From positions 930,001-994,000 of the forward strand of contig NZ_CP041186.1 in NCBI RefSeq assembly GCF_006517175.1: a stretch of DNA of 64,000 bases. The letters run 5' to 3'. Of this stretch, positions 30,019 to 58,229 are shown piece by piece. Each line of letters begins with the position of its first letter. Position 1 is the stretch's first letter. The notes under the pieces are model-generated. The model saw only the letters and a list, made by a program, of their open reading frames with translations. It ran no database searches and was not told the DNA's origin. Both the position numbers and the translations under genes were made by a program. Source of the DNA: Persicimonas caeni (lineage in GTDB: Bacteria > Myxococcota_A > Bradymonadia > Bradymonadales > Bradymonadaceae).

Positions 30019-31500
30019 TTAGAAGCGCCACCGTACGCCGGCCATCGCACCGCCGCGAAGCGGGGTCGCCTCCAAGCTCACGGCGGCATCCGACGGGCGC
30101 CGCTCGGGCGACACAAGACGCCACAAGCCCCAGCTCGCCAGACCGAGGCCGGCGGCGATCGAGCCGTACCCGGCGACGCGAGCGACAGTCACCTCGGACT
30201 CGGCCTGCTCGAGCTCGGCCTGGTCGGCGAACGTAATGACTGTGACGCCATCACAATCGGCCGCGCTCGTCCCGTAATCGGTGTCGGGCGAGCACTCGAC
30301 CTCGAGGGCGCGGTTTTCGGCCGCCAGCGCCACCCAGGTGCCCACGCCGACCACCGCGACGCCGCCGCCGACGAGCGACCAGCCCAGCCAATCCGTCTCG
30401 CCGGCGTCGTCATCGACCACCGGAAGCTCACCGTCGCCCACGTTCTGGCGGTATTGCGGCAACACCCGCGCCAGCCCACGGCTGATGGCCCGCTCGTCGG
30501 TATTATCACTCCAGACCGCCTCGCCATGCGACTCCACGCGAACGAAGAGGATGGACTCCTCTGCTTCGGTGGCCGCCGAGCGGGTCACGCCCAGCACCCG
30601 CGGCGCACCGCTCCAGAACGCGACCAGCCGAAGATACGCCTCGGCCTTGCGACGCTGGCGATAGTCACCGCTGGTCATGACCACCGACAGCGGGTCCTCC
30701 GACGACACCGGCGCGACCACCTTTTGCCCCTCGGCGAGCTCGAGCTTCCACACCGGCGCCGTCGACCCACCACAATCCATCGTGACCATGTACTCGACGC
30801 CGGCGGCGACCGGATAGGGCCGCTTCTCGACCGGACTTCCGTTGATGAACGCGGTGCAGTCCTTGCCGTCGATCATCTCGACCTCGAGGGTGGCGCCCCC
30901 CTTGGCGAGCTCCTTTCTCTGCTCTTTGATGAACCGAATGATTGTGGGCGGCGAGGTTGCCGCCGACGGCTCCAGCCCCGGCAACGACTTGACCAAGAGC
31001 TGCGCGACGGCCTTGGCATTGTCTTCTTGGCCGAGGTTTTTGTACGCCCGAATCATGACCAAACCGGCCTGATAGATCTGGTCGGCAAAGTCAGGCCGCC
31101 TGGCCAAGACCTCAGGATTGGCCATCCCCATGTCGAACACCGGCGACAACTTGGCGATCGCGGCCTCGTTGCCCTTGTAGAAGAACTGCTCGACGCCGTC
31201 GGCGATGACGTTCGCCAGCCCCGAGAACTTCGAGGCCACCGCCGCCCGCGGCACAGCCACCTTGCGCTCATCGAGCACCGCCTCGAGCCGATCGCCCATC
31301 ATCACGTCGAACCTCGCCCCGTCCAGAAGCCCCGACACCGTCTGCATCACCCCACCGGAGTGCGCCCCCTCGTCGAGCGCGACCACCGCCACCCGGTGCT
31401 GCACCTCATCATCCGCAGCCACCGGCGGCGCCGCGACGACGACAGCCGGCACGAGCCCCGCCACGGCGACCAATATCCACATCCAAATCTTCATCATCAT
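30019..31500 (-). CDS. Exported protein with C-terminal membrane module, function unknown
   Basis: 493 residues starting MMMKIWMWI with AGGTGG just upstream. A cleavable-looking signal peptide is followed by VAVVALDEGAHSGGVMQTVSGLL, a stretch typical of deltaproteobacterial proteins that handle a TPR-like or peptidoglycan-linked envelope function. There is a helical middle part and a Cys-containing PEGA-like beta segment (CTAFINGSPVEKRPYPV). The C-terminus has two hydrophobic helices (WSLVGGGVAVVGVGTWVAL and GYGSIAAGLGLASWGLWRL) and ends in Phe. The same module ends the protein at 35436-36185. It is probably an envelope protein. Transcription probably starts from the shared element at 31534-31592. 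Confidence 0.75.
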   Translation of the reverse strand: MMMKIWMWILVAVAGLVPAVVVAAPPVAADDEVQHRVAVVALDEGAHSGGVMQTVSGLLDGARFDVMMGDRLEAVLDERKVAVPRAAVASKFSGLANVIADGVEQFFYKGNEAAIAKLSPVFDMGMANPEVLARRPDFADQIYQAGLVMIRAYKNLGQEDNAKAVAQLLVKSLPGLEPSAATSPPTIIRFIKEQRKELAKGGATLEVEMIDGKDCTAFINGSPVEKRPYPVAAGVEYMVTMDCGGSTAPVWKLELAEGQKVVAPVSSEDPLSVVMTSGDYRQRRKAEAYLRLVAFWSGAPRVLGVTRSAATEAEESILFVRVESHGEAVWSDNTDERAISRGLARVLPQYRQNVGDGELPVVDDDAGETDWLGWSLVGGGVAVVGVGTWVALAAENRALEVECSPDTDYGTSAADCDGVTVITFADQAELEQAESEVTVARVAGYGSIAAGLGLASWGLWRLVSPERRPSDAAVSLEATPLRGGAMAGVRWRF

Positions 31501-31533
31501 CTCGTCCACCTAAGAGTACAGTTGTTCGTGCCC

Positions 31534-31772: not shown

Positions 31773-32822
31773 TCAGGAGCCTCCACAGTACTTGTCACCA
31801 GTCGGACCGCCACACGAGATACTGCCGGGACATTGAGCGCCGAGAGAGCAAGCGTAAGAACATCGGTCTGTAAGCGTCCCTACCTGCTCACAACGTCCAT
31901 CGTCCTGCCCCGAAACCCCACAGTCCGCATTCGACGCACAGGAAGTATCCTGGACCAAATCCACCACCGCTTCACACGTCGTCATCGACTCGACGATACC
32001 GCAGTAGCTATCCTCCGGTGCTCCCGACACACTGGCGCGAGTAATCACCACCGCTCCGTAGGGACGACTACACCCACTCGACACCGTCTTCAAACAATAC
32101 CCATCCGGCAACGCCGTCCCATCGAAATTCATCTCGATGCACGCATGGTTCGCCACACACTCACTATCCGCCTTGCACTTCCCACACGTCCCGACCGTGC
32201 CACGCTCGGTCTGCGTGCACGTGTTCGTCGCCGGGTCGCACGAGTACTCACCACACGCCGTCTCATCGTCGACCGTACACTCCACACACGTTCCACCGGC
32301 ACACACCCCGGCGCCATCCACGCTCGCGCACTGACTGTCGTCGTCGCAGGGCACGCACTCGTTGCTCGCACTGCACTTGGCCGCCCCGGGCGCATCACAA
32401 TGCCCGTCGCTCAGGCACTCCACACACTTGCCTGCGCCGACATCGCATACCGCAGAGTGGCACTGGCCGTCTTCATAACAGTCCACACACTCGTTGCTGG
32501 GACTGCATATCCCGATCGTGCAGTCGCCATCGCGCAGACACGCCACGCACTCACCGCTCGCCTCGTCGCACACCGGCGTCGGATGGGCGCACGTCTGGCC
32601 GCACGGGCCACTATCGGGCTCCACGTCTTCTTCGACATCCTGCGGGCGGGTGTCCTCGGGGCCCGAGTCGGCCGCGTCGGGCGTGAGTTCGGCGTCGGAA
32701 GCGTCCGCGCTCGTCACCTCTGCGTCTCGCTCCTGGACCGTTCCGCCGTCGAAACAAGCGGCGAGGACCAGGCAACACATGCAAATGACGCCGAGGAGTG
32801 CTCTTCGTGTGCTCGCAGACAT
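31773..32822 (-). CDS. Cys-rich Asp-rich lipoprotein, tandem copy 1
   Basis: 349 residues. Signal peptide with lipobox LVLAAC, an Asp/Glu/Pro-rich linker of about 60 residues, then about eight short modules of the form CxxCxxDxxC (for example CVACLRDGDC, CVECLSDGHC, CVPCDDDSQC) resembling Dickkopf-N or EGF-like cysteine ladders. The C-terminal domain of about 95 residues starts at CSRPYGAVV and ends DKYCGGS. ATG 32822 has AGGA 8 nt upstream. Nearly identical to the next gene except in the last 95 residues. Expected to be lipid-anchored with a disulfide-rich stalk on the cell surface or outer membrane. Partner unknown. Confidence 0.82.
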   Translation of the reverse strand: MSASTRRALLGVICMCCLVLAACFDGGTVQERDAEVTSADASDAELTPDAADSGPEDTRPQDVEEDVEPDSGPCGQTCAHPTPVCDEASGECVACLRDGDCTIGICSPSNECVDCYEDGQCHSAVCDVGAGKCVECLSDGHCDAPGAAKCSASNECVPCDDDSQCASVDGAGVCAGGTCVECTVDDETACGEYSCDPATNTCTQTERGTVGTCGKCKADSECVANHACIEMNFDGTALPDGYCLKTVSSGCSRPYGAVVITRASVSGAPEDSYCGIVESMTTCEAVVDLVQDTSCASNADCGVSGQDDGRCEQVGTLTDRCSYACSLGAQCPGSISCGGPTGDKYCGGS

Positions 32823-33020
32823 GTCATTCATCCTCAAAAGCAACTCGTCCCCCTCGCGCGAGGACGAAAGATTGTCGTTCAACCCACGCTACGGATTGGG
32901 CGAAGTGAAAGAAATGCGAGGCGGTGACTCCTTTCGGCCAGCCAAGGCTCTCGGTCAAAACACAACTCTGAGCCGAGTCTTTACCCAGCGAACAGCGCCT
33001 TTCGATATGGGGGTCACTGC
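32823..33020 (-). repeat. Duplicated leader region of lipoprotein copy 1
   Basis: This 198-bp gap matches the gap at 34077-34274 almost base for base, including GGCCGAAAGGAGTCACC and the AGGATGAATGACATG start region. Together with the genes it forms a tandem unit with a period of about 1255 bp. The two copies differ most at the edge near the upstream gene's stop and in a short AT-rich patch at 32951-32973. Confidence 0.75.
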
Positions 33021-34076
33021 TCAAGAGCCTCCACAGTACTCGTCTCCCGTTGGCCCATTACATGTTCTACCCGACGGACAGTCATCACTAGTACCACAGG
33101 AGTAGGTGCAGCGATTTGAAAACGCCCCCACCGTTTCACATCGCCCATCTCCTCGATTAACGGCGCCGCACTCGGAGTCGTTTCCACCGGCACATTCAGT
33201 ACTATCGAGAAAATCACGAACTGCCTCACAACTCGTAACAGATTCGGCAATTCCGCAGTATTCGTCTTCGGGGGCACCTGACAGGCTTGCACGAGTAATC
33301 ACAACCGCTCCGTAGGGACGACTACACCCACTCGACACCGTCTTCAGACAATACCCATCCGGCAACGCCGTCCCATCGAAGTTCATCTCGATGCACGCAT
33401 GGTCCGCCACACACTCACTGTCCGCCTTGCACTTCCCACACGTCCCAACCGTGCCACGCTCGGTCTGCGTACACGTGTTCGTCGCCGGGTCGCACGAGAA
33501 CTCACCACACGCCGCCTCATTGTCGACCGTACACTGCACACACGTGCCGCCGGCACACACCCCGGCGCCATCCACGCTCGCGCACTGGCTGTCGTCGTCG
33601 CAGGGCACGCACTCGTTGCTCGCACTGCACTTTGCCGCCCCGGGCGCATCACAATGCCCGTCGCTCAGGCACTCCACACACTTGCCTGCGCCGACATCGC
33701 ATACCGCAGATTGGCACTGGCCGTCTTCATAGCAGTCCACACACTCGTTGCTGGGACTGCATAGCCCAATCGTGCAGTCGCCATCGCGCAGACACGCCAC
33801 GCACTCACCGCTCGCCTCGTCGCACACCGGCGTCGGATGCGCGCACGTCTGGTCGCACGGGCCACTATCGGGCTCCACGTCTTCTTCGACATCTTGCGGG
33901 CGGGTGTCCTCGGGCCCCGTGTCGGCCGCGTCGGGCGTGAGCTCGGCGTCGGAAGCGTCCGCGCTCGTCACCTCGGCGTCGCGCTCCTGAACCGTTCCGC
34001 CGTCGAAACAAGCGGCGAGGACCAGGCAACACATGCAAATGACGCCCAGGAGTGCTCTTCGTGCGCTTTCAGACAT
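33021..34076 (-). CDS. Cys-rich Asp-rich lipoprotein, tandem copy 2
   Basis: 351 residues with the same signal peptide, lipobox LVLAAC, Asp-rich linker and cysteine ladder as copy 1. For most of the ladder only scattered residues differ, for example CTIGLCSPSNEC against CTIGICSPSNEC. From about residue 280 the C-terminal domain diverges (SCEAVRDFLDSTECAGGND), while its cysteine frame and final YCGGS stay. ATG 34076 was chosen by the AGGA 8 nt upstream. It is in the middle of the minus-strand operon, without its own terminator. Confidence 0.82.
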   Translation of the reverse strand: MSESARRALLGVICMCCLVLAACFDGGTVQERDAEVTSADASDAELTPDAADTGPEDTRPQDVEEDVEPDSGPCDQTCAHPTPVCDEASGECVACLRDGDCTIGLCSPSNECVDCYEDGQCQSAVCDVGAGKCVECLSDGHCDAPGAAKCSASNECVPCDDDSQCASVDGAGVCAGGTCVQCTVDNEAACGEFSCDPATNTCTQTERGTVGTCGKCKADSECVADHACIEMNFDGTALPDGYCLKTVSSGCSRPYGAVVITRASLSGAPEDEYCGIAESVTSCEAVRDFLDSTECAGGNDSECGAVNRGDGRCETVGAFSNRCTYSCGTSDDCPSGRTCNGPTGDEYCGGS

Positions 34077-34274
34077 GTCATTCATCCTCAGAGGTAACTC
34101 GTCCCCCTCGAGCGAGGACGATAGATTGTCGTTCAACCCACGCCACGGCTGGGGCGAAGTGAAAGAAATGCGAGGCGGTGACTCCTTTCGGCCAGCCAAG
34201 AATCTTGATCTAAAATACAATTCTGAGCCGAGCCTTTACCCAGCGAACAGCGCCTTTCGGTACAGTTACGCTGT
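34077..34274 (-). repeat. Duplicated leader region of lipoprotein copy 2
   Basis: Second copy of the leader described at 32823-33020. The gap upstream of copy 3 is unrelated, so copies 1 and 2 arose together while copy 3 is older or was replaced at its 5' end. Confidence 0.7.
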
Positions 34275-35354
34275 TCAAGAGCCTCCACAGTACTTGTCGC
34301 CAGTCGGACCTGCACACGAGATACTGCCGGGACACCTCGCTCCCGTAGTGCATGAATATGTGCAGCGGTTGGACAAACCTAGAACGGTTTCGCAACGACC
34401 ATCAGACTCTCCATTCAACCCACACTCCGCGTCAGTTCCATTCGGACATGCGACGTTATCAATGAGATCAAGTACAGCATCACAAGTAGTTACTGATTCA
34501 TTTACGCCACAATAGTTTTCACTAGTTGCCCCAGATAGGCTCTCGCGGTCCACGATACCCGTGTAAGGCTCCACACACCCACTCGACATCGTCTTGAGGC
34601 AATACCCATCCGGCAACCCCATCCCCTTGAAGTTCATCGGCACACACCGATGTCCCGAACCACACTCACTGTCCGCCTTGCACTTCCCACACGTCCCGAC
34701 CGTGCCCCGCTCGGTCTGCGTGCACGTGTTCGTCGCCGGGTCGCACGAGAACTCGTTGCACGCCGCCTCATTGTCGACCGTACACTGCACACAGGTCCCA
34801 CCGGCACACACCCCGGCGCCATCCACGCTCGCGCACTGACTGTCGTCGTCGCAGGGCACGCACTCGTTGCTCGCACTGCACTTGGCCGCCCCGGGCGCAT
34901 CACATTGCCCGTCGCTCAGGCACTCCACACACTCGCCCGGGTTGGTTTTGCACACCAGCCCGGTACCGCACTGGCCGTCTTCATAGCAGTCCACACACTC
35001 GTTACTGGGACTGCATATCCCAATCGAGCAGTCGCCATTGACCAGACACGCCACGCACTCACCGCTCGCCTCGTCGCACACCGGCGTCGGATGCGCGCAC
35101 GTCTGGCCGCACGGGCCACTATCGGGCTCGACGTCTTCTTCGACATCCTGCGGGCGGGTGTCCTCGGAGCCCGTGTCGGCCGCGTCCGGCGTGAGCTCGG
35201 TGTCGACCGTATCCGAGACATCCTCGCTTTCGACGCCGGTATCACGGCTGTCGTAGTTGCCAGGGTCACTGCAGGCGGAAGAGAAGAGAACAAACAAACA
35301 TCCAACAATCAGCGTCAAAACAGGCGCAGTTCTGCCAAGCATAGCTCCGTCCAT
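34275..35354 (-). CDS. Cys-rich Asp-rich lipoprotein, divergent copy 3
   Basis: 359 residues if ATG 35354 is used; ATG 35342 (MLGRTAPVL) is equally plausible, and neither has a clear ribosome site. The signal peptide is unrelated to copies 1-2 (VLFSSAC lipobox). The linker differs, then becomes identical to them from about ELTPDAADTG onward. One ladder module is changed (CGTGLVCKTNPGEC). The C-terminal domain has its own sequence (CVEPYTGIVDRESLSG) but ends GARCPGSISC...YCGGS, closer to copy 1 than copy 2. Such mosaicism suggests recombination among the three genes. Confidence 0.8.
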   Translation of the reverse strand: MDGAMLGRTAPVLTLIVGCLFVLFSSACSDPGNYDSRDTGVESEDVSDTVDTELTPDAADTGSEDTRPQDVEEDVEPDSGPCGQTCAHPTPVCDEASGECVACLVNGDCSIGICSPSNECVDCYEDGQCGTGLVCKTNPGECVECLSDGQCDAPGAAKCSASNECVPCDDDSQCASVDGAGVCAGGTCVQCTVDNEAACNEFSCDPATNTCTQTERGTVGTCGKCKADSECGSGHRCVPMNFKGMGLPDGYCLKTMSSGCVEPYTGIVDRESLSGATSENYCGVNESVTTCDAVLDLIDNVACPNGTDAECGLNGESDGRCETVLGLSNRCTYSCTTGARCPGSISCAGPTGDKYCGGS

Positions 35355-35435: not shown

Positions 35436-36185
35436 TCAGAAGCGCAGCTCGAGTTCAACCCCCATCCCGCCGTTCGCGTCGAACGTCGCGCGAAGCTCCG
35501 GCGAGGTGACCTGGGAAGTTGCTCGCGCCGGGGCTTCGGCGCCAGCCAGGCGGTAGATGCCCCAACCAAGTGCGCTGATGCCGACGGCGCTCAAACCTGC
35601 GCCGACAACGCGGTAAGTCGTGACGCCCGTACGCTTCTGGTCGAACTGCTCGGCGCTCAGTTGGCTATAAGCATCGACGCCTGCGCAACCTGACTTGTCG
35701 GCGTTCGACTGATTGGAGCAGCGCAATCTCTCGGCTTCTCCCTCGGCATAGACCAACGAGGCGATTCCTCCGGCGACCAGAGCAGTCCCGCCGCCGACGA
35801 GCGACCAGCCGAAGACGTCGGCCTCGCTTGTGGTGTGGTCTTCGCTCTGGGCGAGTTGCTGGCGCAGACGCTGCTCGAGCACGGCGACGTTTTCGACATC
35901 GGGAGCGCCGGCCAGCTGATCGCGGTAGTCATCGAGGACGTCGAGGGCGAGTTGTAATTCCCCCATCTTCTCGAGCACGAGAATGCGCCGGTGGATGAAG
36001 CGAGGCTGGGGTTCGGCGCGGTAGGCCAACTCGAGCAGCTCGAGCGCCTCGTTATATTTACCGACCTGCTCGGCCTCCATGGCTCTCTGGAAATGCCCGT
36101 CCGCTGTGGGCCCCGCGGCAAACGCCAAACCGGCAATCAGCAGACCAGCGATGGTCAACATCAAGATTCGCATGTATCGCAACAT
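35436..36185 (-). CDS. TPR-containing exported protein with C-terminal membrane module
   Basis: 249 residues. The signal peptide (MLRYMRILMLTIAGLLIAG...AFA) is followed by two TPR-like helical pairs (FQRAMEAEQVGKYNEALELLELAYRAEP and a second one around ILVLEKMGELQLALDVL). Two hydrophobic helices follow (VFGWSLVGGGTALVAGGIASLVY and VVGAGLSAVGISALGWGIYRL), and the end is ELELRF. The helix pair matches the one in the 30019-31500 protein. Lies 81 nt before lipoprotein copy 3 in the same operon. A scaffold role for the lipoproteins is inference. Confidence 0.78.
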   Translation of the reverse strand: MLRYMRILMLTIAGLLIAGLAFAAGPTADGHFQRAMEAEQVGKYNEALELLELAYRAEPQPRFIHRRILVLEKMGELQLALDVLDDYRDQLAGAPDVENVAVLEQRLRQQLAQSEDHTTSEADVFGWSLVGGGTALVAGGIASLVYAEGEAERLRCSNQSNADKSGCAGVDAYSQLSAEQFDQKRTGVTTYRVVGAGLSAVGISALGWGIYRLAGAEAPARATSQVTSPELRATFDANGGMGVELELRF

Positions 36186-41753: not shown

Positions 41754-41842
41754 GCCTTTTGGGTCAGCTCAATTGATTATGGCAGGTTTCCCTCTCACTG
41801 CCCCATTCGCCTCCTCGAGGCGTAAGGGCAAGGGTGGCGGCA

Positions 41843-44800
41843 ATGAATCACAAAGGCGTTATAGGCGTATTCACGAGCTCTCTAGCGCTCGTTATGGCAA
41901 TGGGTGCAGCGTCTCCGGCGATGGCCGCCGGTGAGTGGAAGGCTCCAGACGTCACGATCTTTTTGGGACCCGACTTCGTCGATGACGGGCAGACCGACAA
42001 GGGCGGCCCGACGATGAACGAGACCATCTCCAACTACTACTTTGCTGGAGATTGCACCTACGACCCGGTAACGCTAGAGCCGTCTGACACCTGCGATCGT
42101 CTGCGTTACGGCTTGACGATGTATCGGGGAGCCGACGAAGACCTGGCGAATAACCCCGGCTACTGCCCCACCCCCTACGCCGCGCTCGTCCCCCCGCAAG
42201 AAGACGGCGGCGGCAAGCTCATCAACGACGGCGAGCCGTACAAGATGTCACAGCTGCAGACCGATGCGGGTACCGCCTACTGCAGCGACTATTCTCAGCG
42301 CACCTACGGCACCTCGATGCTGGCCTATCGAGACTACCGTTTCGGCACCGAGCTCGGCACCAACTGGCCCGATCGCCCGCAGCTCAGCGTGACGATGATC
42401 GAAAAGCTTCCGCAGACCAACGACACCACCCAAGATCAAGTGCGTGAGTCGCTGTTGGCGGCTTGTGAGCTGTACGAAGGCAACGGAAACCAGCATCTGT
42501 CGATGCCAACTTGGGTAATGCTCTCCCCGCTTGCGACGGATGACGCGACGCTTTACGGAGGCATGCTCGCCGCGGCCGGCGGCACAGGCCAGTGCTGCTA
42601 CGCCAGCACGCTCGGCGGTACCTGCGACCCCAGCGATCCGACTCAGGTGATCGACATGTGCGATCACCTGCGTCAACTATCGTCGGGAACTGCCGTGCAC
42701 ACCGAGTCGAAGCTTCGCTCTGAGATCACCGCTGACCGCTACGCTTGCACGGCGACCGGTCAGCCGGCGGGACCGGGTGCGATGCAAAATAGCAACTTCA
42801 GCGATATGAAGTGCCACCTTCAGGGCAGCCCGTGCGACGACAGTGTCGCCAACCCCGCCCACTTGTGGCCTATCTTCTCGTGCATCCAGCTGCGCCCGTC
42901 GAATATCCCTGCCGACCAGCTCTCGGTAGAGTACTGTGGATTGATCGATGGCCAACCCATCGACTCCACCCATGGCGACAAAGACGGCGACGGTTGCATC
43001 ACGCTGACGCCCGGCAACGGCATCGAGTTCGTCGACGAGAACAAGAACCTCTACTACTTCACTCGCGGCGGCAGCGAGCTCTGCCAGAGTATTGGCAGCG
43101 GCGACTCGTACACCACGGTCACCTGCCCCAACCTCAATAAGTTGTGCGATCTGAACGACGGCAGTCAGTGCTCGCTGGGCCGGATTGCCTGCATCAACGA
43201 CCAAGAAGTGTGCGAGCGCTTCCCCGGCAACGACAGCTGCGACTCGGTTGCCTGTGGCAAAGAGTCGATCCACCAGACCGGACTGGTGCAGCCCAACGTG
43301 CAGTTCGTGGTCGACCGCTCCGGCTCGATGAGCGGCGACCGGTGGACCTCGGCCAAGGCCGTCACCAAGAACCTGGCCAGCTGGAGTTACAAGGGCAGCG
43401 GATGCGACGACGACGGCCAGCACTGTGACCGAGTGCGTCTGGGCGTACACTTCTGGAGCTCGTACCCTGCTTATGCCTACGGCGCCCAAGAGGACCTGAC
43501 CGGCACGATGGTCGAGGATGCGTTCGACGACAACACGCCGAACGGCGGCACCGACTTCCACGTGGCCGCCCAGCAACTGCGAGACGAGACGGCCCTGCAA
43601 GACGATAATCGGCCAAACACCGGCGTCTTCGTGACCGACGGTATTCCGAACCACGCCTTTACGACTCGCGAAGCTGTCCGACTGCTGTGTGACATCAAAA
43701 AGCGCCCCGGCTCGCCGGTGGCGACCTACGCGGTGGGCTATCAGGATGGCAACCAGAACCTGAACTCATTGGTGGCTGCCGCCGGTGGCACGGGATCGTG
43801 CTGCTTTGCCGGCGATGGCACCTGCGACACCGAGCGCGAAAAGTCACCCTGTGACATGTACCAGTACGAGTTGGATAACGGCGCGCGTATCGTCACCGAG
43901 TTCGAGACGTGGCTGCAAACCCACGGCACGCTCAGCTACTCCGCCTGGGTCGAGATCACCGACTCGCACGAATCCCGCGGCCACACCACGGACGCTTACC
44001 GAACCGGCACGGTCGCCGATGACCTGGACATGGTCTACGACGTGGCGGCCTTCGCCTACGACCACTTGGTCGGAGATCCCGACACGATCGACTGCGCATC
44101 GAACTCGGGCGACCCGAACGCGACCTCGGCAAACCCCGGTGCGTTCTTCCGCTACATTCTCTGTGAGATGGAACCCACCCTCTCGCACGTGGTGCGCCAG
44201 CGCTACGACGACAACAAGCTTCCCGATGAGTACGGCTCTCTGGCCGACTACTGGAAACTCAAGCGAGTCGACGACGACTCGGCGTTCCTCGACAACAACT
44301 ACGTATGCACCGGCGCGAAATTCGCCGACGACCAAAACGCCCTCTACACCGAGTTGCAGGGCATCCTGTCGAATATGGAGTGCACCTACCCGCTGTCGCT
44401 TCTCGCCGACATGGATAGCGCCCCCGAGTGGCCCGATGCCACCCAGGTCAAGCTCTACCTGCCGGGATTGGGTGACGTGGTCCCCGTGCCGCATATCGAC
44501 GACACAGCCGCGCAAAGCGACTTCCGAGACAGCTTGTGCACCCTCGGAATCGCCAACTGTGACAACTATTTGGACGATGGTTGGAGCTTTGCCAACCAGG
44601 GCCGCACCGCTATCAAGCTCTCTGCAGAGTTGTGCGACTTGACCAAGACCCCGGATGTTCAGCGAGTGACCACCCAGGTCTGCCGCATGTGCAACCCCGA
44701 CTTGGTGGGTACCGCCTGCGACTACGTCGCCTGCACGCCCGACGCGCCGCCCGCGAGCCCGACGGTGGGTGACACTGCCTACACGGCCGCCGGCGAGATG

Positions 44801-45379
44801 TGCGCCTGGAAAGAGTACCCCTGCCCGGAGAACCCGGACCGTACCTGCAGCGGATGGACCAAGACCGGCCGCTGCGGCATGGGCGCCTACGCCTGTGACG
44901 AAGACGGCTTCCCGTACTGCGACCAGAACCGCAGCCGGATGCCCGAGATCTGCAACAACGTCGACGATGATTGCGACGGCTCCATCGATGACCTGGCGGA
45001 GAACCTGGAGGAGTGGGACGATCCCCAGTACAGCATCGCCGGCGAAGAATACGATGGTTGGTACTGCAGCTACCGTGATTCGTGCACTTGTCCTCCGGGC
45101 CACACCGACTCAATCGGCGGCACCAAAGCCGACGGTCCGGACGAATTCACCCGGATGATGGAGCACCAGCAGCAGAACGGTCTGTGCCAGTGTGGAGAGG
45201 GCATCGTCACAGGCGGCAACACCGCCTACGAGCCCACCCGCACCTGGGCGCCCGACGAGCCCGCAGGCGAGCCCCAGGCCGCTTGTTCGGCGAGTGGGGA
45301 TAACGCGCCCACCGGTCTGGGTGCCGCGCTTGTCGCCCTGCTCTTTGGTCTTGCCGGTTGGCGCCGGCGTCGCAACTGA
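41843..45379 (+). CDS. Secreted VWA-domain protein with C-terminal sorting tail, copy 1
   Basis: 1178 residues. A signal peptide ends near PAMAAG. Residues about 30-340 form a VWA-like half without a MIDAS. Residues about 485-720 form a full VWA domain: FVVDRSGSMSG (MIDAS), FVTDGIPNHAF, then AAAGGTGSCCF. Further Cys-rich regions follow, and CNNVDDDCDGSIDD at about 1034 is the metal-binding-type motif. The tail is Cys-Ser, then a hydrophobic helix (GAALVALLFGLAG) and WRRRR, like MYXO-CTERM/GlyGly-CTERM sorting signals. ATG 41843 was chosen over GTG 41834. Probably a surface adhesin or large binding protein; the ligand is unknown. Confidence 0.85.
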   Translation: MNHKGVIGVFTSSLALVMAMGAASPAMAAGEWKAPDVTIFLGPDFVDDGQTDKGGPTMNETISNYYFAGDCTYDPVTLEPSDTCDRLRYGLTMYRGADEDLANNPGYCPTPYAALVPPQEDGGGKLINDGEPYKMSQLQTDAGTAYCSDYSQRTYGTSMLAYRDYRFGTELGTNWPDRPQLSVTMIEKLPQTNDTTQDQVRESLLAACELYEGNGNQHLSMPTWVMLSPLATDDATLYGGMLAAAGGTGQCCYASTLGGTCDPSDPTQVIDMCDHLRQLSSGTAVHTESKLRSEITADRYACTATGQPAGPGAMQNSNFSDMKCHLQGSPCDDSVANPAHLWPIFSCIQLRPSNIPADQLSVEYCGLIDGQPIDSTHGDKDGDGCITLTPGNGIEFVDENKNLYYFTRGGSELCQSIGSGDSYTTVTCPNLNKLCDLNDGSQCSLGRIACINDQEVCERFPGNDSCDSVACGKESIHQTGLVQPNVQFVVDRSGSMSGDRWTSAKAVTKNLASWSYKGSGCDDDGQHCDRVRLGVHFWSSYPAYAYGAQEDLTGTMVEDAFDDNTPNGGTDFHVAAQQLRDETALQDDNRPNTGVFVTDGIPNHAFTTREAVRLLCDIKKRPGSPVATYAVGYQDGNQNLNSLVAAAGGTGSCCFAGDGTCDTEREKSPCDMYQYELDNGARIVTEFETWLQTHGTLSYSAWVEITDSHESRGHTTDAYRTGTVADDLDMVYDVAAFAYDHLVGDPDTIDCASNSGDPNATSANPGAFFRYILCEMEPTLSHVVRQRYDDNKLPDEYGSLADYWKLKRVDDDSAFLDNNYVCTGAKFADDQNALYTELQGILSNMECTYPLSLLADMDSAPEWPDATQVKLYLPGLGDVVPVPHIDDTAAQSDFRDSLCTLGIANCDNYLDDGWSFANQGRTAIKLSAELCDLTKTPDVQRVTTQVCRMCNPDLVGTACDYVACTPDAPPASPTVGDTAYTAAGEMCAWKEYPCPENPDRTCSGWTKTGRCGMGAYACDEDGFPYCDQNRSRMPEICNNVDDDCDGSIDDLAENLEEWDDPQYSIAGEEYDGWYCSYRDSCTCPPGHTDSIGGTKADGPDEFTRMMEHQQQNGLCQCGEGIVTGGNTAYEPTRTWAPDEPAGEPQAACSASGDNAPTGLGAALVALLFGLAGWRRRRN

Positions 45380-45409
45380 CGCCCGTTAAATCATCACAAA
45401 CGAAGCAAG

Positions 45410-45441
45410 AGCCCGGAGGCTGTAGTCCTCCGGGCTTTTTT
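45410..45441 (+). terminator. Intrinsic terminator after VWA protein 1
   Basis: AGCCCGGAGG (45410-45419) and CCTCCGGGCT (45427-45436) form a perfect 10-bp stem with a 7-nt loop and a following T-run. It lies 30 nt after the stop, so the second VWA gene must have its own promoter. Confidence 0.93.
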
Positions 45442-45485
45442 GTGTTTGAAGGCTCGAGAACTGTGGCAAGCCCCCCAAAAAAGAT

Positions 45486-45513
45486 CTGTTGTGTGCTTGC
45501 AGGGGAATACAAT
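45486..45513 (+). promoter_or_regulatory. Candidate promoter of VWA protein 2
   Basis: A TACAAT -10 (45508-45513) has CTGTTG 16 nt upstream. TTGTGT also occurs here (45489-45494), as in the copy 1 promoter, but at only 13 nt spacing. The 95 nt to the ATG contain an A/T-rich patch. Support is weak beyond the good -10 and the need for a promoter after the terminator. Confidence 0.3.
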
Positions 45514-45608
45514 CCCCACTAAGCTGACGATGTCACATACTCAAATCAAAAAAGTATATTTTTTTACTGATGCGCACTGCAGGCGCATCGACGACACAGG
45601 GTCAGAAA

Positions 45609-48600
45609 ATGGGGAATCAACGTTTCAAGCAGACGCTCTTGGGGGCCGTCACGCTGGGCACCTTCCTAGCATTTGCCCCGAGTGCGCACGCAGACGGGGA
45701 GTGGAAGGCGCCGGACGTCACGATCTTGTTAGGCGCTGATATCTTTTCGGGAGGCCAGACCGACAAGTCAGGCCCGATGCTCAACACGACGATCAGCAAC
45801 TACTGGGAGGATGGGGCGTGCACCTACGACCAAAACGGTGTGCCCAGTTCGGACTGCGATCGCTTGCGCTTCGGCCTGACGATGTTTCGTGGCCCGAATA
45901 CGTCAAATAACATCTGTCCGGACCCGATCGCGCCGCTGTCACCGCCCCAAGAAGACGGTGGCGGCCAGCTTACCACGGGCGGCCCCTACCACGTCGCCCA
46001 ACTCCAGAGCGACGCCGGTGATCTGTATTGCGACGATTTCAAGCAGCGGACCCTCGGCGAGGCGATGCTCGAGTATCGAGACAATCGCTTCAACAACGAA
46101 TTGGGTACGAACTGGCCTGACCGCCCCCAATTGACGCTGCAACTCATCAAGAACCTGCCACAGACCAACAATGCCACCCAGGACCAGGTGCGCGAAGCAC
46201 TCTTGGCCGCCTGCGAATTGTACCAAGGCAATGGCGGCCAACATCTCTCGTTGCCGACCTGGGTGATGACCTCGCCGCTGGCTGACGCCGACGCGGAGCT
46301 GTTCGGGGGCATGCTCGCAGCAGCCGGGGGAACCGGGCAATGCTGTTACAAGCCGGCATTTGCGGGCAGCTGCGATCCGACCGATTCGAGCCAGACGCTC
46401 GACATGTGTGAGCATCTGCTCGAGCAGAATAGCAGCGGGATCGTCCACACCGAAACGCGCCTTCGCAGCGACATCGACGACGCGAAGTACAATTGCACGG
46501 CCACCGGCAAGCCTGCTGCGCCCGGTGCGATGAAGCACGACAAGTTCAGCGACATGAAGTGTAACTTGCAGGGAAGCCCCTGTAGCGGCAACCACCCCGG
46601 AGAGCCGGCCTATCTGTGGCCGGTGTTCTCGTGCATCCAGCTGCGCCCGTCGAATATCCCTCCCGACCAGCTCTCCGTGGAGTACTGCGGTGAGATCGAC
46701 GGCGAGCCCATCGACGCGTCGCACGGCGACAAAGATGGCGACGGCTGCATTACGCTGACGCCGGGCAACGGCATCGAATTCGTCGATGAGAACAAGAATC
46801 TCTATTACGTGTCGCAAGGCGGCAGTTCGCTTTGCCAGAGCATCGGTAGCGGTGACTCGACGATCAACGTCAACTGCCCGAACCTCAACGAGCTTTGCGA
46901 CCTGAACGACGGCAGCCAGTGCACGCTGGGTCAATACCAGTGCATCAACAACCGACAGGTATGTGAGCGCTTTCCGGGCAACGACAGTTGCGACTCGGCC
47001 GCCTGTGGCCAGGAGCAGGTCCACGACGTCGGCCTCGTGCAGCCCAACGTGCAGTTCGTGGTCGACCGCTCCGGCTCGATGTCTGGCAACCGTTGGACTT
47101 CGGCCGAGCAAGTCACCGAGAACCTGGCCACCTGGAGCTACGAGGGGGCAGGTTGTGAGGACGACGGAACCTATTGCGACAAAGTTCGCCTCGGCGTGCA
47201 CTTCTGGAGCTCTTACCCGGCCTACGCGTACGGGGCTCAGGAAGACATGACGGGCACCATGATCGACGACGCCTACGACGACAACGCTCCCAGCGGCGGC
47301 ACCGCGTTCCACGTCGCCGCCCAACAGCTTCGTGATGAAGCAGCGCTGCAAGACTCGACGCGGCCCAACGCCGGTATCTTCGTGACCGATGGTGCGCCCG
47401 ACCAGGCGTTCACCACGCGCGAAGCGGTACGACTGCTGTGTGACCTGAAGACGCGCTCCGGCTCGCCGGTGGCCACCTACTCGGTGGGCTATCAGGACGG
47501 CAACCAGCAGCTCAACTCGCTCATCGCCGCGGCCGGCGGCACGGGCAGCTGCTGCTTCGCCAGCGATGGTACCTGCGACACCGAGCGTGAAGCTTCGCCG
47601 TGCGAGATGTACCGCTACGAGCAAGACAACGGCCAGCGCATCGTCAACGAGCTCGAGACCTGGCTGCAGACCTACGAGCCGGTCTGGTACGCCGGTTGGC
47701 GAGAAATCGTCGATTCGCACGCGGCCCGCGGGCACACCAAGGACTCGTATCGCACCGGTACAGTCGCTGATGATCTCGACATGGCGCTCGACTTCTCGAT
47801 GTTTGCGTACGCCAACCTTGTGGGGAACCCCGACAACATCGACTGCGATTCGAACGCCGGCAACCCCAACGCCACGGGCAGCAACCCGGGCGCCTTCTAC
47901 CGCTACATGATTTGCGAGATGGAGGACACATTGTCGTATGTCGTCCGTCAACGCTACGACTGGGGCAACGACAGGGCTGAAGAATACGACAGCAGCGAGT
48001 ATACCGCGCTCAAGCGCGTCCAGGACGACTCGGCCTTCTTGGACAACGACTACGTGTGCACCGGCTCGAAGTTTGCCGACGATGAGAACGCGCTCTACGC
48101 CGAGCTGCAGGCCATCTTGTCGAGCATGGAATGCACCTACCCGCTTTCACTGCTCGACGGCATGGACTCGGCGCCCCAATTCACCGACGCCACCCGCGTC
48201 AAGCTGTACGTGCCGAGCCTGGGCACTGTCGTTGACGTGCCGCACACCGATGACACCGATGCACAGCGCGACTTCAAAGACGAATTGTGCAACCTGGGCA
48301 TCGCCAACTGCGCGAGCTATCAGGATGATGGCTGGAGCTTTTCGAACGAAGGACGCACTTCCGTCAAGCTGACCCCCGAGTTGTGTGACCTGACCAAGAC
48401 CGACCTCGTCGAACAGCTGACCACCCAGGTCTGCCGCATGTGCGACCCCGATCTGGTCGGCACCTCCTGTGACTACGTCGCTTGCACGCCCAGTTCGCCG
48501 CCGTCGAACCCGACCACCGGCGACACCGCCTACACGGCCGACGGCGAGATGTGTGAGTTCACCGAGTTCCCCTGTGCGGACAACCCGGACGATACTTGCA

Positions 48601-49133
48601 GCGGATGGACCAAGACCGGTCGCTGCGGCATGGGCGCCTACGCCTGCGACGCCGACGGCTTCCCCTACTGCGAGCAAGTTCGCAGCCGGATGCCCGAGAT
48701 CTGCAACAACGTCGACGACGATTGCGATGGCTCCATCGACGACCTTTCCGAGAACCTGGACGAGTGGGACGAGCCTCAGTACAGCATCGCCGGCGAAGAG
48801 TACGACGGCTGGTACTGCAGCTACCGCGACACCTGCACCTGCCCTCCGGGTCACACCGACTCGGTCGGCGGCACCAAAGCCGACGGCGCAGACGAGTTCA
48901 CCAAGATGATGGAGCACCAACAGCAGTACGGCGAGTGCCAGTGTGGTGAGGGCATGGTCTCGGGAGAGAACACCGCCTACGAGCCCACCCGCACCTGGGC
49001 GCCCAGCAAGCCCGAGGGCGAGCCTCAGGCCGCCTGCTCGGCGGCCGGTGACAACGCCCCCACCGGCTTGGGTGCAGCGATCGCCGCCCTGCTCTTCGGC
49101 TTGGTTGGCTGGCGACGACGCCGCGACGGCTAA
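45609..49133 (+). CDS. Secreted VWA-domain protein with C-terminal sorting tail, copy 2
   Basis: 1174 residues, collinear with copy 1. The signal peptide ends near SAHA. The N-terminal VWA-like half (DVTILLGADIFSGG where a MIDAS would be) is followed by a full VWA domain at about 480-715 (FVVDRSGSMSGN, FVTDGAPDQAF), then CNNVDDDCDGSIDD and the tail CSAAGDNAPTG, hydrophobic helix, WRRRRDG. Similarity is highest in the VWA and C-terminal parts. ATG 45609 (MGNQRFKQ) was chosen because the signal peptide starts there. It converges with radA, 6 nt apart. Confidence 0.85.
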   Translation: MGNQRFKQTLLGAVTLGTFLAFAPSAHADGEWKAPDVTILLGADIFSGGQTDKSGPMLNTTISNYWEDGACTYDQNGVPSSDCDRLRFGLTMFRGPNTSNNICPDPIAPLSPPQEDGGGQLTTGGPYHVAQLQSDAGDLYCDDFKQRTLGEAMLEYRDNRFNNELGTNWPDRPQLTLQLIKNLPQTNNATQDQVREALLAACELYQGNGGQHLSLPTWVMTSPLADADAELFGGMLAAAGGTGQCCYKPAFAGSCDPTDSSQTLDMCEHLLEQNSSGIVHTETRLRSDIDDAKYNCTATGKPAAPGAMKHDKFSDMKCNLQGSPCSGNHPGEPAYLWPVFSCIQLRPSNIPPDQLSVEYCGEIDGEPIDASHGDKDGDGCITLTPGNGIEFVDENKNLYYVSQGGSSLCQSIGSGDSTINVNCPNLNELCDLNDGSQCTLGQYQCINNRQVCERFPGNDSCDSAACGQEQVHDVGLVQPNVQFVVDRSGSMSGNRWTSAEQVTENLATWSYEGAGCEDDGTYCDKVRLGVHFWSSYPAYAYGAQEDMTGTMIDDAYDDNAPSGGTAFHVAAQQLRDEAALQDSTRPNAGIFVTDGAPDQAFTTREAVRLLCDLKTRSGSPVATYSVGYQDGNQQLNSLIAAAGGTGSCCFASDGTCDTEREASPCEMYRYEQDNGQRIVNELETWLQTYEPVWYAGWREIVDSHAARGHTKDSYRTGTVADDLDMALDFSMFAYANLVGNPDNIDCDSNAGNPNATGSNPGAFYRYMICEMEDTLSYVVRQRYDWGNDRAEEYDSSEYTALKRVQDDSAFLDNDYVCTGSKFADDENALYAELQAILSSMECTYPLSLLDGMDSAPQFTDATRVKLYVPSLGTVVDVPHTDDTDAQRDFKDELCNLGIANCASYQDDGWSFSNEGRTSVKLTPELCDLTKTDLVEQLTTQVCRMCDPDLVGTSCDYVACTPSSPPSNPTTGDTAYTADGEMCEFTEFPCADNPDDTCSGWTKTGRCGMGAYACDADGFPYCEQVRSRMPEICNNVDDDCDGSIDDLSENLDEWDEPQYSIAGEEYDGWYCSYRDTCTCPPGHTDSVGGTKADGADEFTKMMEHQQQYGECQCGEGMVSGENTAYEPTRTWAPSKPEGEPQAACSAAGDNAPTGLGAAIAALLFGLVGWRRRRDG

Positions 49134-54298: not shown

Positions 54299-55234
54299 AT
54301 GAACATGCTTGCCGCCCTGCCCTATTGGCAATTTGGGCCGTGGACGCTAGTCGAAAGCCTGCCCATCATCGATAAACCCCTGCAGGTTCACTCCTTCGGC
54401 ATGCTGGTGGCCATCGGTCTGATCGCCTGTTTGACGGCGGCCAGTTGGCGCGGCGAGAAGAAACTCGGCGTCAGCGGTGAATCGGTCCAAAACTTCGGCA
54501 TCTTCCTGATCATCTTCGGGTGGATCTTCTCGCACATGTTCAACGTGGTGTTCTACGAGCCCGAGAAGCTCGCCGAGAACCCGTGGATCCTGTTCGAGGT
54601 ATGGGGCTCGATTTCGAGCTACGGCGGTCTTCTGGGCGGCATCATCGCCGTATTTATCTGGAAGGCGACCCACAAGGACATGGACCTGCTCATGTGGGCC
54701 GACCACGCTGCTTGGTCCATTCCGATCGCCTGGTTCTTCGGGCGCATGGGCTGCGCGTCGGTTCACGACCACCCGGGCGCCATCGCACCGGAGAGTTGGC
54801 CGCTGGCGTTCCAGTTCCCCGACGGCACCATCCGCCACGACCTGGGCTTTTACGAGATGATCTGGTGGGCCGTCATCGTCGCCGCCGTCTTCTGGTTCGA
54901 CCGCAAGCCGCGGCCCAAAGGCTTCTTCTTGGGCCTCGTCTTCATGATGTACGCCCCGGTGCGCTTCATCCTCGACTTCATGCGCGTGTGGCCGCAGTCG
55001 GCCCGCGGCGACATCGACGTCAACCCGGTGGTGGGCTTTTTCCTCGACCTGTTGCACGTCCAGCCGGAGGTCTACACCTACGGCGGCGACGCGCGTTACC
55101 TGGGTCTGACCCCCGCCCAATACGTCTCCATCGGCATCTTTACGGCAGGCTTGGTGATCTTCTTGAAGGTCAAAGACAACCCTCCGATGGAGTGGAAGCA
55201 GTTCAAGCGCAAGCCACGTGACGAACAGAAGTAA
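54299..55234 (+). CDS. lgt: Prolipoprotein diacylglyceryl transferase
   Basis: 311 residues with about seven membrane helices. The Lgt fold is supported by QVHSFGMLVAIGL near the N-terminus, SSYGGLLGGIIAVFIW with the conserved Y-GG, and GRMGCASVHDHPGA in place of the common GRxGNFxNxE signature. This variant occurs in deltaproteobacteria. Lgt transfers diacylglycerol to the lipobox Cys, which matters in a window with so many lipoproteins. GGAG lies 6 nt before ATG. The copper ATPase follows 22 nt later in the same direction. Confidence 0.9.
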   Translation: MNMLAALPYWQFGPWTLVESLPIIDKPLQVHSFGMLVAIGLIACLTAASWRGEKKLGVSGESVQNFGIFLIIFGWIFSHMFNVVFYEPEKLAENPWILFEVWGSISSYGGLLGGIIAVFIWKATHKDMDLLMWADHAAWSIPIAWFFGRMGCASVHDHPGAIAPESWPLAFQFPDGTIRHDLGFYEMIWWAVIVAAVFWFDRKPRPKGFFLGLVFMMYAPVRFILDFMRVWPQSARGDIDVNPVVGFFLDLLHVQPEVYTYGGDARYLGLTPAQYVSIGIFTAGLVIFLKVKDNPPMEWKQFKRKPRDEQK

Positions 55235-55256
55235 CCAAGCGCGCAACGGTACCTTG

Positions 55257-58229
55257 ATGACAACATTGCAGTTCAACGTGGAGGGGATGACGTGCGGCAA
55301 GTGCAGCTCACGCGCCGAGAACGCCATCCTCGAGTTGGGTGATTTTCCTCGCGTCGAAGTCGACCACGAGACCAACAGCGCCACTGTGGACCTCGGGGAC
55401 GACTCCGGCCAAGACCACGAGGCGTTGGCCGCAGCCATCACTGCCGCGTTGACCGAAATCGGCTATCCCGCCGAGCGTTCCAACGAGGAACACGCCGAAA
55501 GTGCTCCCCCCGATAACGACGACGAGGCCCAGCCGACCACGCTGACCTTCGACGTCGAAGGCATGACCTGCGGCAAGTGCAGCTCGCGAGTCGAAAACGC
55601 CATCCTCGAATTGGGCGATTTTCGCCGCGTGGAGGTCGACCACGACCAAGATCGCGCCGTGGTCGAGCTCGACGCCGCTGATGACCTCGACGTCGACGCG
55701 CTGGCGGCGAAGATCGCCGAGGCGGTCGGGGATGTGGGATATCCCGCAAAACTGAAAATTGGGGCGACGGATTCCGCAGACCCGGTGCCGGATTCCGCAG
55801 ACCCGGTGCCGGATTCCGCAGACCCGGTGCCGGATTCCGCAGACCAGGTGCCGGATTCCGCAGACCCGGTGCCGGATTCCGCAGACCCGGTGCCGGATTC
55901 CGCAGACCCGGTGCCGGATTCCGCAGACCCGGTGCCGGATTCGGTTGCCGAAAAAGCTACCGCCGACGACGGCGCCGAAGTGCGCTTTGACGTGGGTGGG
56001 ATGACCTGTGCGTCGTGCGTGGCGAGCGTCGAACACGCTCTCGAGGATGTCGAGGGTGTGGCTGGCGTACGCGTGAACTTTGCCACCGAGCGGGCCTCCG
56101 TCCGGCTCGGCAAAGACCGCGCCGACGACTCCGACATCGAGCGACTCAAAAAGGCGATTGAAGGCGTCGGCTACGAAGTACGCGACGTCGAGGCGCCCAC
56201 CGCCGATGCGAGCGCGGTCGCCCAGGCCCCCGCCCCGGCCGAGCAGCAGCGCAGCCGCATGAGCGAGCGCCGCGAAGAAGAGGCGCGCGAGTGGAAGCAA
56301 CGCTGGGTCACCGGCCTGGTGCTCACCGTGCCCATCCTGTTCATGCAAATGGGCCCGATGTGGTTCGACTTCATGCTGTCGGGCACCGCAGAGGCGTGGC
56401 GCCTAGGCCTGCTCGGCTACCTGACCACCATCGTCTTCGCCTACGTCGGCAAGCCCTACCTCGAGGGCGCGTGGAAGAACCTCAAGCATTTCCGCGCCAA
56501 CATGGACACCCTCATCGCCATGGGTTCGTCGGTCGCCTGGGGCTTCTCGATGGTCGTGGCCGTCGCGGCGCTCTTTGGCACCACCATCGCCGAGGGCGAA
56601 GTCTACTTCGACGGCGCGGCGATGATCCTGACGCTCATCTCGGTCGGAAAATGGCTCGAAGCGCGCGCCAAGGGTAAGGCCGGCGCCGCCATCGAGGCGC
56701 TCCTCGACCTGGCCGCATCGACCGCACGGGTGCGACGAGGCAGCGAATGGGTCGAAGTCCCCGTCGCCCAGCTCCAACACGGCGACGAGATGCTCGTCAA
56801 ACCGGGCGAGAAGATCCCCACCGACGGCGTCGTGGCCGAAGGACGCGCCGACGTCGACGAGTCGATGCTCACCGGCGAATCGGTGCCCGTGACCCGCGAA
56901 GAAGGCGACGAGGTCATCGGCTCGACCATCAACACCGACGGCCGCCTCGTCGTGCGCGCCACGCGCGTCGGCGGCGAGACCGCCCTGGCTCAGATCATCG
57001 AGCTCGTCGAGCGCGCCCAGGAGTCGAAGGCCGACATCCAGCGCCTCGCCGACCGCGTCTCCTCGGTGTTCGTACCCGTGATCATCGTCATCGCGATCAT
57101 CACCTTCGCCGCCTGGCTCATCTGGGGCGCGAGCCTCGCCACCGCCGTGCTCCCGGCGGTCGCCGTGCTCATCGTCGCCTGCCCCTGCGCGCTCGGCCTG
57201 GCCACGCCCACCGCCATCATGGTCGGCACCGGCAAGGGCGCCAATATGGGCATCCTCATCCGCGACGCCCAGGCCCTCGAGCAAGCGCGCGACCTGAACG
57301 CGGTGGTCTTCGACAAGACCGGCACCCTGACCACAGGCCAGATGGGGGTCACCGACGTACGCTCGCGCATCATGGAAGAGGAGTTCCTGCGCCTTGGAGC
57401 CTCCCTCGAGGCCCCCAGCGAGCACCCCATCGCCGAGGCGATCGTGCGCCACGCCGAAGAGGCCGGCATCGAGCTCGAAGAAGTCGACGAGTTCCGCTCG
57501 GTCGCCGGCGACGGCGTCGAGGCGGTCATCGGCGGCCGCGAGCTTCGCATCGGCAAGCCCTCCTGGATTCTGGGCGACGACGAGGCCAAGCACACCGACG
57601 AAATCCTCTCCATGCAGAAGGACGGCAAGACCGTCGTGGCATTGGCCGAGGGCGACCAGCTCCTGGGGCTCTTCGGCGTGCGCGACGAAATCAAGGAGGA
57701 GTCGAAGAAGACGGTCGCCTGGCTCGAGAAACGCGACGTCGAAGTCTGGATGATCACCGGCGACAACGAGGCCACCGCGGCCGCCGTCGCCAAAGAGATC
57801 GGCATCGCCCCCGAGCACGTCAAAGCCGGCGTTCGCCCCGAGGACAAAGCCGACGCCGTCAAAGAGTTGCAGCAAGGCGGCAAGCGCATCGTCGGCATGG
57901 TCGGCGACGGCATCAACGACGCCCCTGCGCTGGCTCAGGCCGACCTGGGCATCGCCATCGGCACCGGCACCGACGTCGCCATCGAGTCGTCCGACATCAC
58001 GCTCGTCTCCGGCGATATCAAAGGCGTGCGCCGAGCCGTCGAGCTGTCGCGCAGCACCTACTCGAAGATCAAGCAGAACCTGTTCTGGGCCTTTGTCTAC
58101 AACACGCTTCTGGTCCCCGTGGCCGCCTTCGGCTTCCTCATCCCGGCGATGGCCGCCGGCGCGATGGCGCTCTCCAGCGTGAGCGTGGTGAGCAACTCGC
58201 TTCTGCTCAAGCGCCGCAAGATTGCGTGA
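55257..58229 (+). CDS. copA: Copper-transporting P1B-type ATPase with three metal-binding domains
   Basis: 990 residues. Two heavy-metal-associated domains with GMTCGKCSSR (about residues 10 and 100) are followed by a linker of eight SADPVPD units, then a third domain with GGMTCASCV. The core has MLTGESVPVT, the CPC metal site (about 642), DKTGT (D686), SEHPIAEAI and GDGINDAPAL. The last helix carries MALSSVSVVSNS, typical of Cu(I) ATPases. Exports copper and may serve oxidase metallation. ATG 55257 was preferred to a GTG at 55218 that overlaps lgt. Confidence 0.95.
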   Translation: MTTLQFNVEGMTCGKCSSRAENAILELGDFPRVEVDHETNSATVDLGDDSGQDHEALAAAITAALTEIGYPAERSNEEHAESAPPDNDDEAQPTTLTFDVEGMTCGKCSSRVENAILELGDFRRVEVDHDQDRAVVELDAADDLDVDALAAKIAEAVGDVGYPAKLKIGATDSADPVPDSADPVPDSADPVPDSADQVPDSADPVPDSADPVPDSADPVPDSADPVPDSVAEKATADDGAEVRFDVGGMTCASCVASVEHALEDVEGVAGVRVNFATERASVRLGKDRADDSDIERLKKAIEGVGYEVRDVEAPTADASAVAQAPAPAEQQRSRMSERREEEAREWKQRWVTGLVLTVPILFMQMGPMWFDFMLSGTAEAWRLGLLGYLTTIVFAYVGKPYLEGAWKNLKHFRANMDTLIAMGSSVAWGFSMVVAVAALFGTTIAEGEVYFDGAAMILTLISVGKWLEARAKGKAGAAIEALLDLAASTARVRRGSEWVEVPVAQLQHGDEMLVKPGEKIPTDGVVAEGRADVDESMLTGESVPVTREEGDEVIGSTINTDGRLVVRATRVGGETALAQIIELVERAQESKADIQRLADRVSSVFVPVIIVIAIITFAAWLIWGASLATAVLPAVAVLIVACPCALGLATPTAIMVGTGKGANMGILIRDAQALEQARDLNAVVFDKTGTLTTGQMGVTDVRSRIMEEEFLRLGASLEAPSEHPIAEAIVRHAEEAGIELEEVDEFRSVAGDGVEAVIGGRELRIGKPSWILGDDEAKHTDEILSMQKDGKTVVALAEGDQLLGLFGVRDEIKEESKKTVAWLEKRDVEVWMITGDNEATAAAVAKEIGIAPEHVKAGVRPEDKADAVKELQQGGKRIVGMVGDGINDAPALAQADLGIAIGTGTDVAIESSDITLVSGDIKGVRRAVELSRSTYSKIKQNLFWAFVYNTLLVPVAAFGFLIPAMAAGAMALSSVSVVSNSLLLKRRKIA
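55770..55937 (+). repeat. Eight 21-bp tandem repeats inside copA
   Basis: GATTCCGCAGACCCGGTGCC plus G is repeated eight times, seven identical and one (fourth) with CCAGG instead of CCCGG. It encodes eight SADPVPD/SADQVPD units between the second and third metal-binding domains. Near-perfect identity means recent expansion or gene conversion, and the copy number probably varies between strains. Confidence 0.97.

Follow-up and report, generated by a model that had tools for sequence, protein, structure and literature searches.

Shared cysteine ladders and private C-terminal domains in tandem lipoprotein-type genes of Persicimonas caeni: probable segmental gene conversion

Three tandem genes for Cys-rich lipoprotein-type proteins in Persicimonas caeni, a predatory member of the Bradymonadales, are probably old paralogues whose ladder of Cys repeats has been repeatedly homogenised by gene conversion, with the ends remaining private to each gene; judging from the sequences, we put the probability of this reading at about 0.6. 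The genes, termed c1, c2 and c3, occupy positions 31773–35354 on the minus strand of the window, a stretch of 64,000 nucleotides (nt) of contig NZ_CP041186.1 (positions 930,001–994,000). Each paralogue would consist of anchor, linker, ladder, hinge and tip. Conversion between neighbours, presumably by RecA-type homologous recombination, would keep overwriting the repetitive ladder, and in c1 and c2 also the upstream DNA and the signal peptide, and the C-terminal domains would remain distinct under purifying selection.

The three genes display the same layout: a predicted N-terminal lipid anchor and an Asp-rich linker lead into a ladder with 25 aligned Cys, and a hinge connects this ladder to the tip, a C-terminal domain also rich in Cys. 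c3 (34275–35354; 359 amino acids, aa) is transcribed first, and neither its upstream region nor its signal peptide is shared with the others; c2 (33021–34085; 354 aa) and c1 (31773–32831; 352 aa) follow, and the genes are separated by gaps of 189 nt each. The lengths of c1 and c2 are counted from the MNDMS start. Both frames open upstream with TTG, but the ATG at 32831 (c1) or 34085 (c2) is the likelier lipoprotein start; an alternative ATG lies three codons inside it. Judged by eye, LAAC is the putative lipobox of c1 and c2, and FSSAC a lipobox-like sequence in c3.

The DNA identity among the copies switches sharply from 90–96% in the ladder to 59–62% in the tip (about 90–100 residues), and the change point was reached by none of 2000 permutations in each of the three full-length comparisons (c1/c2, c1/c3 and c2/c3). 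The best tract between c1 and c2 spans codons 7–264 of 352, with 96% identity inside and 62% outside (0 of 2000 codon permutations). It continues for about 180 nt into the intergenic DNA upstream, as far as about 33007 and 34262, respectively, and begins some 15 nt past the stop codon of the preceding gene. The two halves of this tract (32040–33007 in c1 and 33294–34262 in c2, edges approximate) comprise upstream DNA, signal peptide, Asp-rich linker, ladder and hinge, and their coding parts are about 96% identical. The break lies 87–88 residues ahead of the C-terminus. The tips beyond it have diverged (31773–32039 in c1, where synonymous sites are saturated with respect to c2 and c3; 33021–33293 in c2; 34275–34578 in c3), but the 10 tip cysteines have all been retained, as has the YCGGS end in c1 and c2.

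The part that c3 has in common with c1 and c2 is confined to the end of the linker and the ladder (codons 46–225, 92%), corresponding to a tract at 34658–35216 with approximate edges that is 90–92% identical to both. The upstream region, signal peptide and early linker of c3 are its own (43% nt identity), and its hinge and tip have diverged as well. Within the otherwise saturated tips, c1 and c3 are 94.6% identical over their final 56 nt, about 18 residues (34278–34333 in c3, matching 31776–31831 in c1; 11 of 2000 permutations), which is likely a second, short conversion tract. No such short tract was found within the c1/c2 and c2/c3 tips (556 and 1344 of 2000 permutations). An earlier reading of the window from the sequence only had proposed near-identity of copies 1 and 2 through signal peptide, Asp-rich linker and ladder, divergence over the last 95 residues, retention of the Cys pattern and the YCGGS end, and a different signal peptide in copy 3, in close agreement with these results. 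It had also described the C-terminus of copy 3 as a mosaic closer to copy 1; this holds for the last 18 or so residues, but not for the tip as a whole, which is equally distant from c1 (0.58) and c2 (0.57).

Synonymous sites break at the same boundary as nonsynonymous sites, as segmental concerted evolution requires. In codon-aligned windows of 30, the synonymous (dS) and nonsynonymous (dN) divergences between c1 and c2 are 0.05–0.23 and 0–0.06, respectively, up to codon column 270; past this column, dS ranges from 1.7 to saturation and dN from 0.24 to 0.53. From ladder to tip, the proportions of synonymous and nonsynonymous differences (pS/pN) rise from 0.09/0.02 to 0.70/0.27, the Jukes–Cantor dS from 0.10 to 2.1 and dN from 0.02 to 0.34. 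Because dS and dN jump together, the boundary separates sequences of different age, i.e., it is a recombination boundary and not a product of diversifying selection. On these sequence data the tips are best described as old and under purifying constraint (pN/pS of 0.37–0.39), and the stalk as recent. The sequence-only reading had anticipated a sharp nonsynonymous rise at the break, and the rise is indeed present, but dS climbs to saturation with it. Likewise, its picture of a fixed stalk with a changeable tip stands as regards duplication, recombination, the fixed stalk, the differing tips and the mosaicism of c3, but not as regards a fast-changing tip.

The same mosaic organization recurs in other genomes. 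The genus is represented by a single genome in the data, and the comparison is thus made across genomes and not among strains. We called a pair mosaic when it had a tract of 150 nt or longer that was at least 85% identical and its last 90 codons were no more than 65% identical. This definition was applied to 61 family proteins from 24 genomes; only pairs with 120 or more aligned codons were counted, nine open reading frames (ORFs) were left out by name and G300b was left out as cut by the contig end. Nine of the 79 within-genome pairs, from 6 genomes, are mosaic, compared with none of the 1750 between-genome pairs. The nine comprise c1/c2, c1/c3 and c2/c3, one pair each from genomes G001, G010, G136 and G194, and two from G017, and the tract lies mostly in the ladder, being N-terminal in G010. 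The G136 pair has a 403 nt tract with 90% identity inside and 47% outside, and the G194 pair a 183 nt tract with 91% inside and about 50% outside; in both of these distant genomes, the two ends differ. G298 and G136b also carry a tract, and their tips are alike too. The excess of body over tip identity in c1/c2, c2/c3 and c1/c3 is exceeded by none of 936 between-genome pairs; the corresponding Mann–Whitney p of 3e-5 serves only as a guide because within-genome pairs are not independent. No near-identical tract is present in two control tandem pairs nearby, MopE1/MopE2 and lipo1/lipo2. A further tandem pair in the window, VWA1/VWA2 (41834–49133; 1181 and 1187 aa), whose VWA-type label is our presumption, shows higher similarity over the final third (pS of 0.31–0.43 at codons 960–1140 vs 0.6–0.7 at the start) and is possibly another partly homogenised pair.

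The strongest competitor of gene conversion, though an unlikely one, is a recent duplication followed by replacement of the tips through recombination with diverged or foreign relatives. c1 and c2, near-identical from upstream of the gene to codon 264 and different in the tip alone, fit this scenario by themselves equally well, and several further observations weigh against conversion. The GC content at third codon positions (GC3) drops from 0.77, 0.77 and 0.82 in the ladders of c1, c2 and c3 to 0.58, 0.42 and 0.44 in their tips, with neighbouring genes mostly at 0.8–0.9, which could mean that the tips were imported. In the body tree, c1–c3 form one clade (100/99) and G010a/G010b another (100/100), whereas the tip tree, weakly supported and with the c1–c3 tips not resolved, recovers neither, so that some tips of ladder relatives (G010a/G010b) appear scattered. 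Moreover, 70 of the 79 within-genome pairs are not mosaic, many tandem pairs have no tract (e.g., the own-genome pair in L006, G010c and G006), and the members of the G010 and G017 pairs come from different contigs of draft assemblies, in which a mixture of strains could mimic paralogy. Against tip exchange, the approximately unbiased (AU) test does not reject tip monophyly for c1–c3 (p 0.33), G010 (0.43) or G194 (0.18); together with the poor resolution of the tip tree, these values mean that this tree neither proves nor excludes exchange. The c1–c3 tips are mutually closest (57–62% vs at most 54% to any other member), and the search for a foreign donor of the tips found none, each tip's nearest relatives being the other two; nor was a donor found among the five family members of the own genome. 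The low GC3 of the tips could also reflect GC-rich conversion of the ladder in an AT-leaning locus (GC3 of the neighbour MopE1, 0.60). A similar drop is seen in the G136a tandem pair in L038 (0.71/0.51 and 0.77/0.57). GC-biased conversion was considered as the cause of GC-rich ladders; G000 and G136 are suggestive, G194 and G010 weaker, and the effect is absent in G001 and G017. The median GC3 difference between body and tip is 0.022 in 15 tract-bearing rows and 0.015 in 30 others, a contrast so small that GC-biased conversion is not claimed. The balance is tipped by the pairs in which both ends differ (c3 vs c1/c2, G136a and G194), since here the moving part looks like the stalk and not the tip: one ladder conversion explains each of them, whereas tip exchange needs two events, one at either end. 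We therefore infer that the event was conversion rather than tip exchange.

Two other explanations carry much less weight. Diversifying selection that sped up the evolution of the tip once the genes had duplicated, with no recombination involved, would account for the high tip dN, but is very improbable given that dS saturates at the same place and that the tip pN/pS is low. Neither do orthologues of sister species have fast tips in general, and hypervariable tips were accordingly rejected as a common property: in two genes of G012/G013 the tip diverges like the rest of the gene, and in G040/G036 its pN is slightly higher (0.14–0.18 vs 0.04–0.10 elsewhere). G040/G190 are diverged throughout, and the tip is more diverged in G017a/b, copies in one draft genome. 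Least probable of all, by a small step, are polymorphic lipoprotein toxins of the SitA kind, in which a conserved carrier bears a variable toxic C-terminus and an immunity gene lies adjacent. The copies are lipoprotein-type proteins with a common front and differing ends, and such toxins are used in this phylum according to PMC8546572 and PMC5562445. However, no cognate immunity gene was found beside the copies, whose 189-nt gaps leave too little room for an ordinary one; the C-terminal domain is a single conserved Cys-rich family across the phylum and not a set of exchanged folds, and no Pfam family matches c1–c3 at E up to 1.

By sequence, c1–c3 are members of a Cys-rich lipoprotein-type family that is spread over Myxococcota. 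Among genomes of the order, searches with c2 found it in 10 of 26 (E up to 1e-10); in a sample of 282 genomes from the phylum, 19 had it (E up to 1e-15), as did 18 of the 33 genomes from a different family in the phylum (E up to 1e-12) and 1 of 1 and 6 of 10 from two further families. There is overlap between these genome sets, and the three families named at the end were picked because they held matches. Contig scans of the genome collection for close relatives returned 0 and 1 locus, and no close relative. The C-terminal domain is alignable across the whole family, and 14 of the 15 invariant columns among 21 tip-domain members are Cys; seven ORFs (duplicates or other kinds of ORF) were left out of the alignment, and the ORF starts of the relatives were set mechanically. 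At the threshold given above, PF11617 was found in two neighbouring proteins and not in c1–c3. The 21 tip members gave weak Pfam matches, the best being Dickkopf_N (E 0.0045) in 4 of them. The tip profile has no match among solved structures; a separate comparison gave one match (E 0.012), to a chain named SAKe6AR, which was taken as chance. Two AlphaFold models had mean predicted local distance difference test (pLDDT) values of 43.5 and 44.0 and are unusable. In the literature searched, both the family and the ladder as its homogenised segment appear to be undescribed.

The closest precedent is found in Helicobacter pylori, where one segment of the paralogues babA/babB and homA/homB is homogenised within a strain and another diverges, a pattern ascribed to gene conversion (PMC2795765); the homogenised part is the 3' segment, as established across 24 strains. 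The likeness is that of surface-type paralogues of one genome with one segment homogenised and another diverged. The two cases differ in that bab and hom are unrelated outer-membrane proteins affected in the 3' segment, whereas the proteins considered here are predicted lipoproteins affected in the central ladder, with the comparison made across genomes. The Cys-rich repeats of TraA, the outer-membrane exchange receptor of myxobacteria, have been proposed to form a stalk on which a polymorphic recognition domain is presented (PMC6372800). The TraA profile (NF033759) yields 36.8, 23.8 and 26.7 bits for c1, c2 and c3, respectively, far under the curated cut-off of 750, so that they are not members; the c1 match is weak and lies within the ladder only (profile positions 282–442 of 666). 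No TraA above the 750-bit cut-off occurs in the own genome. In TraA the variable domain is PA14-like and N-terminal, with a MYXO-CTERM motif at the C-terminus, whereas in c1–c3 the predicted lipid anchor is N-terminal and the variable domain C-terminal, and no PA14-like N-terminal domain was found in them (Pfam, E up to 1). The short Cys-rich repeat Myxo_Cys_RPT (TIGR04201) matches c2 (12.3 bits) and c3 (16.5 bits) weakly, under its 25-bit cut-off. Elsewhere in the own genome, the locus G000:C1:1951105-1951791 (L114, L115) shows weak TraA-profile matches (26.7 and 24.2 bits), and one of the matched stretches holds a TGA.

The transcription order on the minus strand is two lipoprotein-like proteins with MopE-type motifs (PF11617; 36215–38889), a TPR protein whose C-terminal half is, by eye, membrane-type (35436–36185), c3, c2, c1 and a protein at 30019–31509. 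The two array-flanking proteins (30019–31509 and 35436–36185) have a C-terminal part in common, with 34% identity over 138 aa, and differ in the rest. Similar TPR proteins, two of them with PEGA domains, also occur near the family at three other loci (L050, L006 and L052) of nine listed, and this recurrence may hint at an envelope module. A protein kinase gene (L006:2059-3870) adjoins the second family pair of the own genome, beside the TPR-PEGA protein. Farther along the window, a protein at 55218–58229, which we presume to be P-type ATPase-like, has a run of DSADPVP repeats between N-terminal metal-binding-like domains.

The anatomy of the proteins suggests a stalk presenting a binding domain, by analogy with the proposal for the TraA Cys-rich repeats. 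In that case the outer membrane would carry the proteins, the ladder would serve as their stalk, and each tip may bind a different ligand on prey, kin or matrix. A more speculative extension, to which we give little credence, is a set of stalk-and-tip receptors in predatory and social Myxococcota, TraA-like but of reversed polarity, in which conversion keeps the stalks interchangeable and each tip retains a ligand of its own, resulting in a multi-ligand repertoire for prey or kin. More generally, where a stalk is conserved and the tips have diverged, it may be the stalk that was rewritten and not the tip that evolves fast, which corrects the natural misreading of such arrays. The work adds a Myxococcota-wide lipoprotein-type family for which the searches yielded no Pfam model, with ladder homogenisation in several lineages, and its members are candidate surface proteins for study in bacteria whose predation depends on cell contact.

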